From positions 1 through 55,126 of the forward strand of contig WGAY01000078.1 in assembly GCA_015494585.1 (NCBI GenBank): DNA of 55,126 nt, given 5' to 3'. A program made the position numbers and the translations under genes. This DNA comes from Candidatus Omnitrophota bacterium. GTDB lineage: Bacteria > Omnitrophota > Gorgyraeia > S143-82. Shown here piece by piece: positions 8,939 through 33,457 of this stretch. The notes beneath the pieces are model-generated. The model was not told the DNA's origin. It searched no databases and saw nothing but the letters and a program-made list of their open reading frames with translations. Numbering within the stretch: the stretch's first letter is position 1; the number at the start of each line of letters is the position of its first letter.

Positions 8939-11437
8939 ATGCTTGCTGAAATCATAAGGCACTCATTGAAGGAATCTCCGGGCGTTGTGTCGGTCGTGGC
9001 CTCGGCTGGCTCGGGTAAGACGTTTACGTTGACCAGTCTTTACATTGCCTTACTTTTAAAAGGCATCCCTATTGACTCTATCCTTGCGATTACCTTTACC
9101 AATAAGGCAGTAGAGGAGATGCGCCTGCGTGTGATTTCGAGGTTGATGGCAATTTATTTTGAAGGTAAGGAAGTTGATTTTTTCAGCAGTGTCCTAGGGG
9201 AGAGCGAGGAGAAGATACGTTTTCTTGCAGGGGTGATACTTGAGAAGATGCTGTTTAATCTGTCTATGATGTCCATTCAGACTATCGATAGTTTCCTGAA
9301 TAGGCTGAGGATGGCATTTAGCCTCGAACTGGGGATAAGCCCTTATGCACAGATACGAAACTCTATCTACCCTGATATGGAGATGATACTAGGTGCATTG
9401 CTTCTAGAGGCGCAGGAAAATGAGGGAATTCGCTCGAATCTTATGAGGTTTATTCATAGGTTTGCAGCAGGGCTTTCGGTCTATCGTTCTTGGGACCCTG
9501 TAGAATATGCCAGGGATGTCTTTCTTTCTTTCCTCTATCAGGAATCGTATAGCGGGTTGCAAATAGGACGGATGGACTGCCGGCCATTAAAGGCCTTAAG
9601 AGAGGAGGTTATTCAGAAGAGAGATAGGTTCCTGGATTTTGTAAGGAGGAGTTCTCTCAGTCTAAAGACTACCGTTTACAAGGCCCTGGAGGGCATTTCT
9701 ATAGACGCTCTTCAGTCGCTTACTGGTATAAGTTCTTCCTATTTCCGGAAGCTGGATATAGAAGATTATCTTGATATCTATAAAAAGGAATCCCGTACGG
9801 CTAAGCTTAAGGAAGTTAGTGATGGCTATGGCCTATGGAGAAAATTTCTGGAGTCGTTATACGAATTTTGTGAGAGTGTCTCTGTTTCTATTCCTATGCC
9901 TTTTGTAGAGGTCTATGCGGCGTTTAAGAGCATATTGGAGTCCTATCAGAGGGAAAACGATGTGACCTATCTCAATCTCCTGCAGATACATATCTCTCGA
10001 CTCGACCCTATGGTGGTAGCGGAAAAGAGTTGTATGAGGGTTTCACGTTATAAGTATTTCTTGATAGACGAGTTTCAGGATACGAGTCTCTCCCAATGGA
10101 CTGCCCTACGTCCTTTACTCGAGGAGTTATTGAGTCAAGGGGGGCTGTTGTTCTGTGTCGGGGATCCAAAGCAGACTATATATCGCTGGAGAGGTAGTCG
10201 TCCAGATATGTTTCAGTTGTTGAAAGGGGCCTTTAACGCCGAGTTTAGGGAGTTTGTACTAGATACGAACTGGCGTAGTAGCAGACAGCTGGTAGAATTT
10301 AATAACCGCATATTTTCTGTGGGACAGGAGATAGGGGCCAGGTTTGATAACGGCCATCTGGATGGAATATATCTTGGTTATCTATCTGACTGCTTTTCCC
10401 CAGATAAGGTGTGTCAGCAGAGTGTGATAGATATATCTGGTGGGGTCGAGTTAGTCTATTGGGATGATTTGCAGGATATTCAGGACTATGTGGATGCGAT
10501 ATTTTCTATTGTACAGAATAAGCTGGGATGTTCGGATGTGTGTATACTAGTTCGGACAAATTCCCAAGCAAGGGATTTATTGCTTGGCCTGTCTCAAAAG
10601 GGAGTGCCTGTGATATCCGATGAATCGGTTGCATTGACTTCTAATCCTATTATAAGGTCGATAATATGCCTATTAAAGTGGATAAGATTTCCGGAGAATA
10701 ATACTTATCTATATATGTTTCTTATGAGTGATTTATGGAAGCGGGTGTCAGGGAGAGCTAATGGATTTTGGGAGAAGGAGATAAGGATTAGAGAATCAGA
10801 TTCCCTGGCAAGTATGGTTATGTCTTATGTCTCTATTCGTCCATCTTCTAGCCTTTATCTCTATGTGAAGACCTTGATGGATAGGTTGGATGTTTTTACT
10901 ATCTATCCGGAACATCGTTTATATCTAAATGGATTTTTGGATATGATATGGAGATGGGAGATGGAAAATAATTCTTTGTTGTCGGAATTCCTTGATTATT
11001 GGGATAAACAAGATACATCCTATACAGATGCTGAGCGGCTTGCAATGCCAATGCTTAAAGATACGGTTAAAATAATGACCATACATAGCTCAAAGGGACT
11101 GGAATTTGATACAGTGATATTGCCGTTTTTAGCGATAGATTTCATAAAGCGAAAAAGCGGCAGGTTTGATGCCCAGCTCCACTGGGTAGAAGGCGATGCC
11201 CTTTATCCGCACTATGTAAATAAAAAGATGTTGTTTCCAATGACAAAACTGGAACGACTTTATAACCAGGAGAATACCCTTATCCTATGGGATAATATGA
11301 ATCTTCTTTATGTAGCAATGACGCGTGCCAAACGACGACTTATATTACTTCTGCCTGGACAGCTAAATCCTGGGAATAGAATAAAACTGTGGGCGGAGTT
11401 TGTAACCCGCGATGCAAGGTCTGAATTGGAGTCGTAA
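8939..11437 (+). CDS. UvrD/RecB-family (AddA-like) helicase without nuclease domain
   Basis: This 832-residue superfamily 1 DNA helicase has Walker A ASAGSGKT (residues 21-28), motif Ia ITFTNKAVEEM and motif II LIDEFQDTS. The remaining motifs are GDPKQTIYRWRGS, DTNWRSS, MTIHSSKGLEFDTVILPF and LLYVAMTRAKRRLIL. The overall pattern matches RecB/AddA helicases, which act in double-strand break repair. Those proteins normally continue with a nuclease domain of about 300 residues; this one ends about 30 residues after motif VI. No AddB/RecC partner is nearby. It could be a stand-alone helicase or pair with a separate nuclease. Confidence 0.85.
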   Translation: MLAEIIRHSLKESPGVVSVVASAGSGKTFTLTSLYIALLLKGIPIDSILAITFTNKAVEEMRLRVISRLMAIYFEGKEVDFFSSVLGESEEKIRFLAGVILEKMLFNLSMMSIQTIDSFLNRLRMAFSLELGISPYAQIRNSIYPDMEMILGALLLEAQENEGIRSNLMRFIHRFAAGLSVYRSWDPVEYARDVFLSFLYQESYSGLQIGRMDCRPLKALREEVIQKRDRFLDFVRRSSLSLKTTVYKALEGISIDALQSLTGISSSYFRKLDIEDYLDIYKKESRTAKLKEVSDGYGLWRKFLESLYEFCESVSVSIPMPFVEVYAAFKSILESYQRENDVTYLNLLQIHISRLDPMVVAEKSCMRVSRYKYFLIDEFQDTSLSQWTALRPLLEELLSQGGLLFCVGDPKQTIYRWRGSRPDMFQLLKGAFNAEFREFVLDTNWRSSRQLVEFNNRIFSVGQEIGARFDNGHLDGIYLGYLSDCFSPDKVCQQSVIDISGGVELVYWDDLQDIQDYVDAIFSIVQNKLGCSDVCILVRTNSQARDLLLGLSQKGVPVISDESVALTSNPIIRSIICLLKWIRFPENNTYLYMFLMSDLWKRVSGRANGFWEKEIRIRESDSLASMVMSYVSIRPSSSLYLYVKTLMDRLDVFTIYPEHRLYLNGFLDMIWRWEMENNSLLSEFLDYWDKQDTSYTDAERLAMPMLKDTVKIMTIHSSKGLEFDTVILPFLAIDFIKRKSGRFDAQLHWVEGDALYPHYVNKKMLFPMTKLERLYNQENTLILWDNMNLLYVAMTRAKRRLILLLPGQLNPGNRIKLWAEFVTRDARSELES

Positions 11438-23688: not shown

Positions 23689-24489
23689 ATGGTAAAGGTT
23701 GGTATCCTTGGGGCATGTGGTCGAATGGGTAGGGCCATTAATGATATCTGTTCTCAGGACGAGAGTGTTGAGGTTGTGGCGCTTTGGGAACGTCCAGCCA
23801 GTGAATTTATCGGAAAATCTGGACAGGAGGTTGGGCTAGGCTGTGATGTAAAGATAGAATCATTTCCGTATGGTCTTCCAGAGGTTGATGTGGTAATAGA
23901 TTTTACTATGCCCGAGGTTACTATGTCCGTACTGCCAGAGGTGGTCAGACGCGGCAAGGATATGGTCATTGGAACTACTGGATTTTCCGATGAGGAGAGA
24001 AAAAAAATAGAGTCGGCAGCTGATTCGATAGGGATAGTCTTTTCACCTAATATGTCCCTTGGTGTAAATCTACTGTTTGTCCTCGTGCAGCTTGCAGTAA
24101 GCGCGTTACCTGATAATTACGAAATAGAAATAGTAGAGGCCCACCATCATTTTAAGAAAGATGCCCCATCGGGTACAGCTATGAAGCTTTGGGAGATTAT
24201 CAAGCATGTCCGTTCTCTATCTGATAACGATCTGGTCTATGGACGACGGGGGCTGACAGGTCCGCGCAGGCAGGATGAGGTGGGCATACATGCATTAAGG
24301 TGTGCTGATATAGTTGGGGAGCATACAGTAATGTTTGGAATAGAAGGAGAGAGGATAGAGTTATCTCATAAGGCCTCCTCTCGATTTGCCTTTGCCAGGG
24401 GAGCTGTGATGGCAGCGAAGTTCATAACAGAAGAAGCCAAAGGCCTCTACGATATGTTGGATGTTATGGGATTAAAGTCTCTCCTTTAG
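23689..24489 (+). CDS. dapB: 4-hydroxy-tetrahydrodipicolinate reductase
   Basis: DapB performs the second step from aspartate semialdehyde to diaminopimelate and lysine, and so supports peptidoglycan synthesis. The 266-residue protein begins VKVGILGACGRMGRAI (GxxGxxG nucleotide fold). It has VIDFTMPE, GTTGFSDEE, SPNMSLGVNLLF and the catalytic EAHHHFKKDAPSGTA. The start is preceded by AGGAGG. Transcription probably begins in the repeat just upstream. Sixteen bases separate it from priA. Confidence 0.96.
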   Translation: MVKVGILGACGRMGRAINDICSQDESVEVVALWERPASEFIGKSGQEVGLGCDVKIESFPYGLPEVDVVIDFTMPEVTMSVLPEVVRRGKDMVIGTTGFSDEERKKIESAADSIGIVFSPNMSLGVNLLFVLVQLAVSALPDNYEIEIVEAHHHFKKDAPSGTAMKLWEIIKHVRSLSDNDLVYGRRGLTGPRRQDEVGIHALRCADIVGEHTVMFGIEGERIELSHKASSRFAFARGAVMAAKFITEEAKGLYDMLDVMGLKSLL

Positions 24490-24504: not shown

Positions 24505-26256
24505 GTGGGAGTTGGCCAGTTGAATTTTATTGTTGATCTACTTGTCGATGTGCCTGTAGATCAACCCTTCTCATATATATCCTCGCAGGCATTGCAGGCA
24601 GGTCAGCGTGTTGTAGTTGACTTTGCGGGCAAGAAGAGACTAGCCATTGTGGTCGACTCATATCATATCGGCCAACGGGGTGTTGAAATTCCTCCATTAA
24701 AGCCTGTTCTTAAAATACTAGATTTAAAGAGAAGTAGATGGTTTTCGTCTCTTGATATTGAATTTTTGAGAACTATATCGGATTCTGTGTTTGTCTCTTG
24801 GGGGGAGATGTGCATATCTGCTCTCCCGAAGGTGTTTAGACAAAAAAGACTAGTTCAATTTTCTATAGATGAGACGTTGCGGCCAGATAATAGGGAAGAT
24901 GTGGGATTTGTAGAATCTGTGTATGGTGATTCCTGCCATTTCCATAAATTCGTACTGGAGGAAATATCAAAGCAAAACACCAGGATCTACCTATGGATAG
25001 TGGATTCTACTTATAGGGCCAGAGAGGTGCGTGAATGGATTGCCAATAAAATTAGTATTCCAGTTTTCTTATTTACTCATGATTCTACGATGGAGAGTTT
25101 GAAGGAAATAGTTGGGGCACTTAACAGAGGGTCCATATTGATAATAGGGACAAGGCATCTAGGATTTTTCCCGTTACTAAAGGGCGAAACGATATTTTTA
25201 GAAGATGCCTGGATGGATATTTATAGGCAGGAGGTTACTCCGAAGTATGACCTAAATCGTGTCCTTTCTATGCGTGCGGATGTAAACGGTTCGCGCATAT
25301 ATAGAAATATGGTGAGACGCAGGAAATCGGTTTCTGTATATGCCATACAGTCCAGGGAGCACAGGCTTCTGCCTGTATTTGTAGAGGAGGACTTTCGCAA
25401 GAGGGTTTCAGGAGGAGAGCGTTGTGCGATATTTATGTTTGGTTCTGGATATGCTAGAATGCTTAGATGCTCTTCCTGCAAGACAGTCCAGTCTTGTCCA
25501 AGGTGTGATAGGCCTTATAACCTAGTCCTTGTGGGGAAAAAACATCAACTTTATTGTCCCTCGTGTGGTCAAAGCATAGAATGGCGGGGGAAGTGTATAC
25601 AGTGCAGTTCTATTTCTGTGCGCCTTTCTTCTATGGGAGCAGAGCGCTGGACGAAGATTATTAGAGACAGGTTAACAGACGTGGATGTCTTTGTGAACGC
25701 AAGACAGATCTCTAGCCCGGGTGTGTATATCTTTAACAGATGGCAGGGACTGTGTTCGGAGTTTTCTTGTGCCCTGTTGTTGGGGATAGATAAGATACTT
25801 GCCCTTGATAGGTTTTATTCCCTGAATCTTGCCCTTGACTTTATTGCCTCTGCGTCCTTTAAGGTCAGGGATAAGTTGTTTGTTAGGACGAGGTTTGAAT
25901 GGCTGGCTGATGAGGCGTATGCTGTAGAAAGGGATGATAAGATACGCAGGGACCTGGGTCTGCCTCCGTATGGAAAGGTTGTCGTGGTGTCGGTTAGAGA
26001 TAAGCGCCTGAAGAAGGCGAATCAGTTTGCCATTGAGTTATCGAATAGATTATCGAAATTGTTGGAGAATAGGGATGCAAATATACTTGGGCCATATGCG
26101 CCTGTCGAGAAAAAGAAAAGAGATTATTATTATTTCAACATAGATATATTCTTGCATAAGGAGATCTCTCCTAATTTGACAAGAGAGATAAAGGACCTCT
26201 TATTAAGTGTAAGGAAGAGAAATAATACGATAGTAACCGTAGAGGTCTTTGAATAA
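24505..26256 (+). CDS. priA: Primosomal protein N' (PriA), helicase motifs degenerate
   Basis: PriA reloads the replisome at stalled forks. The 583-residue protein keeps the N-terminal DNA-binding region (DVPVDQPFSYISSQALQAG) and all eight zinc cysteines (LRCSSCKTVQSCPRC and LYCPSCG plus KCIQC). It also keeps the C-terminal GLPPYGKVVVV segment. The ATPase motifs are gone: Walker A aligns with SVYGDSCH (138-145), DEEH reads EDAW (233-236), and the KGHDFP and QVAGRAGR motifs are unrecognisable. The frame is intact, so this is not a fresh pseudogene. Actinobacterial PriA shows a similar loss, suggesting a structural loader role. The GTG start at 24505 is uncertain; TTG 24520 is possible. Confidence 0.85.
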   Translation: MGVGQLNFIVDLLVDVPVDQPFSYISSQALQAGQRVVVDFAGKKRLAIVVDSYHIGQRGVEIPPLKPVLKILDLKRSRWFSSLDIEFLRTISDSVFVSWGEMCISALPKVFRQKRLVQFSIDETLRPDNREDVGFVESVYGDSCHFHKFVLEEISKQNTRIYLWIVDSTYRAREVREWIANKISIPVFLFTHDSTMESLKEIVGALNRGSILIIGTRHLGFFPLLKGETIFLEDAWMDIYRQEVTPKYDLNRVLSMRADVNGSRIYRNMVRRRKSVSVYAIQSREHRLLPVFVEEDFRKRVSGGERCAIFMFGSGYARMLRCSSCKTVQSCPRCDRPYNLVLVGKKHQLYCPSCGQSIEWRGKCIQCSSISVRLSSMGAERWTKIIRDRLTDVDVFVNARQISSPGVYIFNRWQGLCSEFSCALLLGIDKILALDRFYSLNLALDFIASASFKVRDKLFVRTRFEWLADEAYAVERDDKIRRDLGLPPYGKVVVVSVRDKRLKKANQFAIELSNRLSKLLENRDANILGPYAPVEKKKRDYYYFNIDIFLHKEISPNLTREIKDLLLSVRKRNNTIVTVEVFE

Positions 26257-26350: not shown

Positions 26351-26791
26351 ATGAAAGTAATTGCTACTAATAAAAAGGCAGCCAGGGATTATGAGATCTT
26401 TGATAAGTTTGAGGCTGGATTGGTTCTGACTGGGACGGAAGTTAAGTCCCTGCGTGCAGGACGGGCGAATATCAGTGATGCATTTGTTAGGATAGAAGGT
26501 GGCGAGGCCTTTGTATTTAATATGCACATACCGGAGTATAAGCATGGTAACCTATTTAATCACGACCCTGTACGCAAGCGGAAACTGCTGCTTCATAAGA
26601 GAGAGCTGGATAAGATAAATGGGGCAGTAACCAGAAAACATTATACCTGCATTCCATTGAGATTATACTTCAAGGGTGGCTGGGCAAAACTGGAAATAGC
26701 CCTTGCTAAGGGCAGGCGCCAGTACGACAAGAGGATGCAGATAAAGAAGCGTGAGGTGGAGCGGCAGATAAGAAAGGCCCTGAAGAGGTAG
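26351..26791 (+). CDS. smpB: SsrA-binding protein SmpB
   Basis: SmpB carries tmRNA to stalled ribosomes for trans-translation. The 146-residue protein has the family's IATNKKAARDYEIFDKFEAG start, LTGTEVKSLRAGRANI, PEYKHGN and the basic C-terminal tail with KGRRQYDKR. The ribosome site before ATG is weak. No tmRNA (ssrA) gene could be recognised near it. A short lysine-rich gene follows after 27 bases. Confidence 0.96.
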   Translation: MKVIATNKKAARDYEIFDKFEAGLVLTGTEVKSLRAGRANISDAFVRIEGGEAFVFNMHIPEYKHGNLFNHDPVRKRKLLLHKRELDKINGAVTRKHYTCIPLRLYFKGGWAKLEIALAKGRRQYDKRMQIKKREVERQIRKALKR

Positions 26792-30980: not shown

Positions 30981-31790
30981 ATGGATAATGTTTTGAAGAT
31001 AAGGAAGGCCGTGGAGGAGAATCTCTCTTCGGTTAGACATAAGATATTGGTTATGAGTGGCAAGGGAGGGGTTGGTAAGTCTTCTTTTGCTGTGAATATG
31101 GCTGTGGGTTTGACCCTGCGCGGCAAGAGGGTAGGGATACTGGATACTGATGTGCATGGGCCAGATGTCCTGTTACTTTTGGGTGTTGAGTCTGAGCCTC
31201 TATTTACGGATGCAATGGGCAAGATTATGCCGGTTAAGGTCAATGAGAGGCTTTCTGTCTTGAGTCTGGCCTCTAATCTTAATCCTGATGAGGCAGTGGT
31301 TTGGCGCGGACCTCTAAAAATATCTGCTATTCGTCAGTTTCTGGCAGATACCAATTGGGGAGAACTCGACTTCCTTATAATTGATTCTCCACCTGGTACG
31401 GGGGATGAGCCACTTACTGTGATGCAGTTTTTAGAGGGGATGCTTGACGGGGCAGTGGTGATAACCACTCCTCAGGATGTTGCGCTGCTTGATACCAGGC
31501 GGAGTATTGCATTTGCCAAGAAGATGAATGTGCGTTTGCTTGGTATTGTTGAAAATATGAGTGGTTTTGTGTGTCCTCATTGCGGAAAGACAACGGAGTT
31601 ATTTCTTTCCCGAGGAGCAGACAGGATTTCCCGTGAACTTGGGGTGGATGTGCTGGGGCATATCCCATTTTCCATGGCTATGGTGCGCGCCGCACAAGAG
31701 GGTAGGACTATCTGGGATGCACAGGATGACCTGGATGTCATAGAGGTCTACAATAAGATTATCGATAGGGTTCTGGAGAGGATTGGTTGA
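30981..31790 (+). CDS. mrp: Mrp/NBP35-family iron-sulfur carrier ATPase
   Basis: It carries or assembles Fe-S clusters. The 269-residue protein has the deviant Walker A SGKGGVGKSS (residues 26-35), the DTDVHGPD switch and the DSPPGTGDEPLT motif. A CxxC pair in FVCPHCGK holds a bridging cluster. The N-terminal DUF59 domain of longer Mrp proteins is absent, which is common. It is divergent from the GGDEF gene with a 90-base shared promoter region (TAAAAT and TTATAA stretches). It leads the + strand run through the pab fusion. Confidence 0.93.
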   Translation: MDNVLKIRKAVEENLSSVRHKILVMSGKGGVGKSSFAVNMAVGLTLRGKRVGILDTDVHGPDVLLLLGVESEPLFTDAMGKIMPVKVNERLSVLSLASNLNPDEAVVWRGPLKISAIRQFLADTNWGELDFLIIDSPPGTGDEPLTVMQFLEGMLDGAVVITTPQDVALLDTRRSIAFAKKMNVRLLGIVENMSGFVCPHCGKTTELFLSRGADRISRELGVDVLGHIPFSMAMVRAAQEGRTIWDAQDDLDVIEVYNKIIDRVLERIG

Positions 31791-33457
31791 TTTCAGATAT
31801 GGACCTTGCCTTCGTAAAGGATAGCTGGGTGGAGTTGAGGGATGGGGTCTTTTTTGACGATGTAGGAGAGGCCTGCGATGCGATAGAGAGTCGGCGACAT
31901 GAAGGTCCTCTGTTTGTTTACCTATCCTATAGCCCTGCGGATACTGGATACCCACTTGCGGCTATCTGGAAGATGGGCCCTAAAATATCTATGTCACCTG
32001 AGAATGGAGGTTTTGGTGTAACTAGAGTGAGGCTTGGGCGGGGATTTTACGAATTTAGGGGTGCAATTAGAAAGATAAAATCTCATATACGAGAGGGATA
32101 TACATATCAGGTAAATTATACCTTTCCGGTGGAGTTCGATTTCAGTGGTTCGCCTGTGGCCTTGTTTTTTTCTCTGCTAGGCTTTCAGCCTGTGGAGTGT
32201 CCTATGGCGGTGTTTTTTAAGGGGAGGTTCGGATTTTTGTGCCTTTCCCCTGAGCTGTTCTTTGAGGTGAGGGGAAGGGATATAGTTATGGAGCCTATGA
32301 AGGGGACCTGGTCTGTGGATGAGAGATTTGTTATAGACGAGAAGACAAGGGCCGAGAATCTTATGATAGTGGATATGATAAGAAATGATTTGGGGAGGGT
32401 CTCTTGCTTTGGCTCGGTTGAGGCAGATCTATTTATTCGAAAGGACTACAAGACTTTGGTTCAGCTGGTCTCGCGTGTAAAGGCGAGATTGAAGGAAGCT
32501 GTTTCGTATCGAGAATTATTTTCTTCCTTGTTCCCCTGCGCCTCTATAACTGGTGCTCCTAAACTGGAGACTATCTCTATTATCAATGGGCTTGAGGGAT
32601 ATAGGCGCGGTATCTATACCGGTGCTATTGGCGTTGTCGACGGGGACTATGGGCGGTTTTCAGTGGCTATCAGGACGGTCGAGCTGGACCTCTTGAAGGG
32701 AAAGGGGCGACTTGGGATCGGCAGTGGGATTGTATGGGATTCGCGCAGCCATAGAGAATATGCAGAGGATTTGTTGAAGGCCAGATTTTTCTTTTCGTCT
32801 GTATTTGACTTCCACCTCATAGAGACGATGAGGCTAGAAGACGGGAAGTTTCCGCTTCTTGAGTACCACTTCCAAAGACTGGAGGAGGCAACTGCTGTAT
32901 TTGGTTTTAGGTATCCGCGGATGAAGATAATGAGGGCATTGGATTCCCTGAGACAGGAATATAGGGATGGTTTATTCCGAGTTAGGTTGACGCTTTTCTG
33001 GGATGGGATCTATAATTTGGAGGTTAGTCCATTTTGTGAGGAAAAGCAGACTGTGTGGCGATTGATGCTGATGTCGTTTGAGAGGTATGCCCTAAAGGAA
33101 CACCTTTTGTATAAGACCAGTCTCCTGCGTGGATATTTCGATGATACCCTGAGGTCTGCCAGGAGTAAGGGTTATGATGAGGTGCTGTTTTGTGACAAAA
33201 ATGGATATCTGCTTCAGGGTTGTATTACTAATGTATTCATTGAGAAGAACGGGGAGCTTTTTACGCCACCTGTATCTTGGGGTGTGTTAAATGGGGTTTA
33301 TCGGCGTTATATGCTTGCTTCTGGTAGAGTCCAGGAGGCGAGAATAAGCCTGGATGATTTAATAGAGGGGGAGGCGCAGGTATATATGGGCAATGCCCTT
33401 AGATATCTCATCCCAGCGACCTGCGATAGACTGCTATCGAAGGAGTTCGTGGGGTAG
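31787..33457 (+). CDS. pabB: PabB-PabC fusion: aminodeoxychorismate synthase I / lyase
   Basis: This is a bifunctional folate-pathway enzyme. Residues about 1-340 are the chorismate-binding synthase, with EPMKGTW, MIVDMIRNDLGRV and ASITGAPK. Residues about 345-556 are a PLP-dependent class IV lyase, with the Schiff-base Lys443 in LYKTSLLRG and LLQGCITNVF. Together with PabA it makes 4-aminobenzoate from chorismate. The TTG start at 31787 overlaps the mrp stop (TTGA) and has GGAGAGG five bases upstream; ATG 31799 has no well-spaced site. The amidotransferase pabA lies 2 kb away on the opposite strand. Confidence 0.92.
   Translation: MISDMDLAFVKDSWVELRDGVFFDDVGEACDAIESRRHEGPLFVYLSYSPADTGYPLAAIWKMGPKISMSPENGGFGVTRVRLGRGFYEFRGAIRKIKSHIREGYTYQVNYTFPVEFDFSGSPVALFFSLLGFQPVECPMAVFFKGRFGFLCLSPELFFEVRGRDIVMEPMKGTWSVDERFVIDEKTRAENLMIVDMIRNDLGRVSCFGSVEADLFIRKDYKTLVQLVSRVKARLKEAVSYRELFSSLFPCASITGAPKLETISIINGLEGYRRGIYTGAIGVVDGDYGRFSVAIRTVELDLLKGKGRLGIGSGIVWDSRSHREYAEDLLKARFFFSSVFDFHLIETMRLEDGKFPLLEYHFQRLEEATAVFGFRYPRMKIMRALDSLRQEYRDGLFRVRLTLFWDGIYNLEVSPFCEEKQTVWRLMLMSFERYALKEHLLYKTSLLRGYFDDTLRSARSKGYDEVLFCDKNGYLLQGCITNVFIEKNGELFTPPVSWGVLNGVYRRYMLASGRVQEARISLDDLIEGEAQVYMGNALRYLIPATCDRLLSKEFVG

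Follow-up and report, generated by a model that had tools for sequence, protein, structure and literature searches.

PriA (primosomal protein N') restarts DNA replication that has broken down. Actinobacterial PriA proteins (the PRK14873 family) have the domains of PriA without recognisable helicase motifs. In vitro, the PriA of Deinococcus radiodurans lacks both ATPase and helicase activity, yet it binds forks and DnaB, and altered PriA motifs are found across Deinococcus-Thermus (PMC4504706). In E. coli, studies of ATPase-site mutants (priA300, K230R/K230A) found that primosome assembly does not require the ATPase (PMC4504706, PMC10175261), viability is retained without it (PMC4504706), and a 2023 cryo-EM study used the ATPase-site variant PriA K230A in its DnaB-loading assays (PMC10175261). 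In the fork-bound structure 8fak, the cysteine-rich region is pivoted and forms a pore around the lagging-strand ssDNA, and the CRR in this zinc region is the docking site of PriB (PMC10175261). Helicase-deficient PriA also relieves the defects of recG mutants in E. coli (PMC2764109). Why the PriA motor is so widely conserved, though E. coli survives without its ATPase, is an open question (PMC4504706). The literature that we searched contained nothing on PriA in Omnitrophota.

The DNA analysed here, referred to as the window, is a stretch of 55,126 nucleotides (a 55-kb contig) from the genome of an uncultured Omnitrophota bacterium of 1.53 Mb, which is assembled in 80 contigs and is 94% complete. 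It carries a priA gene whose upstream neighbor, dapB, lies on the same strand at a distance of 15 bases (Table 1). Elsewhere, the window codes for an 832-aa RecB/AddA-like helicase (8939-11437) and for a PabB-PabC-like fusion protein (31787-33457).

Table 1. The priA pseudohelicase locus: positions in the window, strand and basis of each assignment
Feature	Position	Strand	Basis
dapB, upstream neighbor of priA	23689..24489	+	TIGR00036, E 5.7e-80
priA pseudohelicase gene	24505..26256	+	583 codons, GTG start, open frame
3' DNA-binding domain PriA_3primeBD, intact	24541..24828 (aa 13-108)	+	Pfam PF17764, E 8.3e-12, above cut-off
Former Walker A / motif I, SVYGDSCH	24916..24939 (aa 138-145)	+	alignment columns of GxTxSGKT
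Core element still present, GTRHLGFFP	25147..25173 (aa 215-223)	+	IGTRSAxFxP in relatives
Former Walker B / motif II DEEH, now EDAW	25201..25212 (aa 233-236)	+	alignment
Retained YRQEVTPKYDLNR	25222..25260 (aa 240-252)	+	conservation in dead PriAs
Cysteine-rich zinc region between the helicase lobes, eight Cys, intact	25468..25605	+	alignment
Motif V position, lost, YIFNRWQGLC	25726..25755	+	alignment
Motif VI position with arginine finger, lost, ASASFKVRD	25846..25872	+	alignment
PriA_C C-terminal domain, intact	25966..26235 (aa 488-577)	+	Pfam PF18074, E 3e-6
smpB, downstream neighbor of priA	26351..26791	+	NF003843, E 3.3e-63

The original prediction, made from the sequence of the window, was that this PriA no longer has Walker A, DEEH or motifs V and VI. 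Alignment with 86 other Omnitrophota PriAs confirmed it. In the Walker A columns, where an intact relative has HGITASGKTEVY, the window protein has ESVYGDS-CHFH; motif V has changed from DILIGTQMVAKGLD in intact PriA to YIFNRWQGLC, and motif VI from TQVAGRSGR to ASASFKVRD. Because the catalytic columns are nearly invariant across 34 intact relatives of the class, this loss goes far beyond chance. The predicted retention of eight zinc cysteines and of the end domains in an open frame of 583 codons was likewise borne out, by the alignment (C322, C325, C331, C334, C351, C354, C364 and C367) and by a Pfam search, in which PF18074 scored 28.4 bits against a curated cut-off of 26.9 and the helicase domain was absent. 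The NCBIfam PriA models match the protein chiefly via its zinc region, with E values down to 3.5e-27 and scores far under the model cut-offs; TIGR00595, for example, gives 80.6 bits for the whole protein and has a cut-off of 230.35.

The further claim that all helicase motifs were lost held for the ATP-handling motifs, but not for the core as a whole, in which GTR (215-217), F221, P223, Y240, Q242, P246 and Y248 are still conserved. Among 49 PriAs without the catalytic sites, which we call dead, the glycine of the GTRHLGFFP element is kept in 100%, its arginine in 86%, phenylalanine in 98% and proline in 86%. The retained YRQEVTPKYDLNR probably occupies the position of the aromatic-rich stretch behind motif II; P246 is invariant in dead PriAs, and Y248 and Y240 are kept in 90% and 88% of them, respectively. 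In the window protein, residues 240-248 read YRQEVTPKY, and RQEVTPKY is identical across the three proteins of its family, f1. The window protein is a PriA by its domains and fold, it is no active helicase by its catalytic motifs, and it belongs with the PriA pseudohelicases of Deinococcus-Thermus.

An AlphaFold2 model of the window protein, based on a 69-row alignment of loci, had a pLDDT of 92.3 and a pTM of 0.90 and predicts a full PriA fold. In a Foldseek search with this model, ranks 1-9 were all PriA, and the top PDB match was 8fak, E. coli PriA on a fork with PriB (E 1.2e-37, TM 0.81), with the remaining PriA entries at TM 0.60-0.67. When an intact relative, L034, was modeled as a control, 8fak was again the top match (TM 0.89 vs 0.67-0.76 for the others). 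The likeness to the fork-bound form is therefore not a property of dead PriAs, and the idea that the dead protein is locked in that shape was dropped.

The genus includes three other genomes. Two of them, G003 and G001, share the loss, with PriAs that are 82% and 41% identical to the window protein; in the third, G002 (390 contigs), PriA was not found, so the loss is common to the congeners with a detectable PriA. With a 29-row PriA alignment as query, PriA was detected in 291 of the 315 genomes of the class that were searched. The sampled PriAs of the class were bimodal: 24 families had all catalytic sites and 31 lacked them, so that the loss is not confined to the window genome and affects most sampled families of the class. 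The Lys-Thr/Ser of Walker A, the Asp-Glu of DEEH and the final arginine of motif VI are all present in the intact set of 40 genomes (the 24 families of the class and six genomes from other classes), and the dead set comprised 62 (the 31 families of the class and f60 of another class). Walker A is lost in the dead genomes, usually along with the other two sites. The only exception to this sharp division is a truncated contig. In 14 dead genomes without Walker A and motif VI, motif II still has its acidic pair. Within Omnitrophota, the class of the window genome itself has intact PriAs, and so do most of the genomes sampled from the other classes; the loss therefore most likely arose inside the phylum.

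Full-length open frames are found in 31 dead families, and dead PriAs retain residues selectively. Of the 49 dead PriAs, 94-96% retain the zinc cysteines, 100% P276 and 90% Y278 (L034 numbering). By contrast, the Walker A lysine survives in 20% and the threonine in 0%; for the motif VI arginines, the figures are 2% and 6%. Three ATP-dead lineages have cleanly deleted the whole eight-cysteine zinc region: f51 (L203, L204 and L091, in three genera), f38 (L092, genome G101) and f60 (L193 and L194). The reverse case was seen in L197 (G336, family f64), in which the ATPase motifs are intact and four of the eight zinc cysteines are replaced (SSCCCCTN). In five genomes of 93-97% estimated completeness (G150, G169, G182, G230 and G017), PriA was not detected with either alignment, which suggests that it is perhaps becoming dispensable.

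How often the motor was lost was assessed with RpoB and PriA trees. In the RpoB trees, 24 sampled dead genomes, including that of the window, form one clade with 100% support, while dead f4+f12, f21, f9/f19/f23, f32 and f60 are placed elsewhere or unresolved; f21 is the sister of an intact family with 95-99% support. Parsimony on these trees gives 5 or 7 changes of PriA state, of which no more than 2 or 3 are required by branches supported at 95% or higher. A PriA tree made without the motif columns gives 4 changes. The tree that includes them gives one split, as is expected with the lost columns, which are the trait itself, among the data. A tree with all dead PriAs in one clade was marginally rejected (AU p 0.044, LG+G4). 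These results argue against a single loss for all dead PriAs, and the motor was probably lost several times across the phylum; since the deep branches are poorly resolved, recurrence is likely but short of proof. A stronger proposal, that the motor was dropped independently at least five times, each time leaving a selected fork-binding scaffold, and that some lineages later deleted the zinc domain or the whole gene, we consider about evenly balanced between true and false. The window family is the most diverged PriA branch of the set (1.7-2.2 changes per column), and its partner binding may have been altered.

The RpoB sequences themselves showed two further features. The full-length RpoBs of the 24-genome dead clade (L137-L158, L183 and L184) are about 100 residues shorter, at 1133-1176 aa, and their match to the RpoB model begins only around position 298, unlike those of the rest of the sampled phylum. 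In L175 (G015:C22:37502-41188), the open frame that contains rpoB runs to 2590 residues and may be a fusion of rpoB and rpoC.

We next consider selection on the gene. Between the window PriA and that of G003, dN was 0.10 and dS 0.83 by NG86 (ratio 0.12), and 0.109 and 0.64 by YN00 (ratio 0.17). Domain by domain, the ratio ranged from 0.08 to 0.32, showing the purifying selection in every domain that a check of constraint had been proposed to reveal, and the former helicase lobe (aa 135-262) gave an NG86 ratio of 0.10. Dead PriAs of other families gave 0.13-0.25 where dS could be estimated, the zinc-less copies 0.18-0.25 (NG86), and the two estimable pairs of intact PriAs 0.06-0.08; in many of the dead and intact comparisons dS was close to saturation. 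With ratios about twice those of the two intact pairs, constraint on dead PriAs is strong and somewhat relaxed. A search with TIGR00595 found no second priA in the 94%-complete window genome; the other identified matches were Mfd, RecG, UvrB and a Hel308-like helicase. The Mfd-like protein (L001:739-2715, contig C2) has an open frame of only 659 residues. Low dN/dS in every domain and the single copy together indicate a maintained pseudohelicase and not a decaying gene.

We consider it highly probable that the window PriA is a pseudohelicase that descended from a normal PriA helicase and serves as a structural factor for fork recognition and DnaB recruitment. By analogy with the D. radiodurans protein and the E. 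coli ATPase-site variants, it most likely recognizes forks and recruits the replisome without unwinding DNA. For the window protein, fork binding, DnaB loading, the source of any unwinding and the absence of ATPase activity itself are all inferred. In the proposed mechanism, the protein would no longer bind or hydrolyze ATP or unwind DNA. Three parts of it would recognize abandoned forks: the domain that binds 3' ends, the C-terminal domain, and the surface with which the old helicase core faces DNA. The lagging-strand ssDNA would be clasped beside the zinc region, and the protein would act as a platform for bringing in the replicative helicase DnaB. The lagging strand would need no unwinding, since ssDNA is already exposed at most forks, or it would be unwound by another motor, such as RecG.

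The Deinococcus PriA is likewise a helicase-descended protein with a disabled ATP site and the PriA domain architecture (PMC4504706). Its description stresses poor motifs I and II and the change of the Walker A lysine to arginine (PMC4504706), whereas motifs I, II, V and VI are unrecognizable in the window protein, which is also shorter, at 583 aa. Unlike in Deinococcus, the losses in Omnitrophota occur in several lineages, and many other members of the phylum keep the ATPase. The actinobacterial family is more distant from the window protein by model match, PRK05580 giving E 3.5e-27 and PRK14873 at best E 8.7e-7. A common origin with the Deinococcus or actinobacterial losses is not supported, because intact Omnitrophota PriAs exist. 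E. coli PriA has the same architecture and the same predicted fork-bound fold (8fak, TM 0.81), but the wild-type protein is an active 3'-5' helicase, while the loss in the window protein is natural, complete and evolutionarily old. The original prediction knew of no such case in a diderm candidate phylum; the kind was already known from the D. radiodurans pseudohelicase (PMC4504706), and what stands is that the candidate phylum is new. Three more features look new: ATP motifs that are eroded almost completely, a loss that probably recurred, and forms without the zinc region.

Other explanations of these observations were weighed against a maintained structural factor. A frameshifted or chimeric priA might be suspected in a metagenome-like assembly of 80 contigs, but the same lesion occurs in three assemblies of the genus, the protein aligns with many other PriAs, and the gene is flanked by dapB and smpB on a long contig, so that an artefact of alignment or assembly can be practically dismissed. 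Decay would fit the graded series that runs from dead PriAs with the zinc region through those without it (f51, f38 and f60) to the PriA-less genomes, as well as the dN/dS values somewhat above those of intact PriAs: the gene would be on its way out, losing the ATPase, then the zinc domain and then the gene, in small genomes with little need of restart. An intact second copy combined with relaxed selection on this one, the finding named in advance as favoring a decaying paralogue, was not what we saw, and we rejected the paralogue on the single copy and the purifying selection. The constraint extends to the zinc-less copies, the open frames of the 31 families are full-length, and the AlphaFold2 model has a confident full fold, all of which make decay very unlikely. 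We detected no DciA, a DnaB-loading partner in other bacteria, in f1, f10 or f38, although its loss did not significantly track that of the PriA motor (Fisher p 0.12). This absence counts against the structural-factor reading and would suit a PriA that has taken on a new role, as an accessory factor for binding forks or D-loops, and has given up DnaB loading, as would the extreme divergence of the f1 branch and the zinc-domain deletions in other dead lineages, the E. coli zinc-region CRR being where PriB docks (PMC10175261). However, neither terminal domain and none of the eight zinc cysteines is missing from the window protein, and the ATPase-less D. radiodurans PriA still binds DnaB (PMC4504706); we regard such repurposing as unlikely.

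Somewhat less unlikely, though still doubtful, is that another helicase, RecG or a Hel308-like protein, took over unwinding and that its gain allowed the PriA loss. RecG is present in the window genome and in 52 of 56 sampled genomes, but it is no rarer in intact genomes, where it was always detected; it therefore does not track PriA loss, and we excluded it as a compensator on this ground. The four genomes in which RecG was not detected (G029, G033, G283 and G291) all have a dead PriA and a full-length Hel308-like helicase, a pattern that recalls the E. coli recG finding with helicase-deficient PriA (PMC2764109), but the numbers are too small to use (absence vs dead state, Fisher p 0.13). Of the tree genomes, 11 of 32 dead and 0 of 23 intact ones have the long type of Hel308-like helicase (Fisher p 0.0014; one hit is cut and one lies inside a giant frame). 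The window family, however, lacks Hel308, as does nearly the whole of f3, while the intact family f16 has it, and an independent-pairs test had too few contrasts; we thus set it aside as the compensating helicase. Among the helicases compared, none was found to track PriA loss. At G278:C23:264099-264884, an N-terminal Hel308-like part lies within a 24,333-residue open frame.

The window PriA, as a maintained pseudohelicase, means that a priA gene in an uncultured genome does not imply the presence of a PriA helicase. The 24 families with the motor and the 31 without it, in which the rest of the protein is selected, offer matched comparisons for the role of the motor. If at least five independent losses did occur, the PriA ATPase, which nearly all other bacteria conserve, would be dispensable under certain conditions, predictable from ecology or genome, and Omnitrophota would represent a natural experiment on the purpose of the PriA motor.
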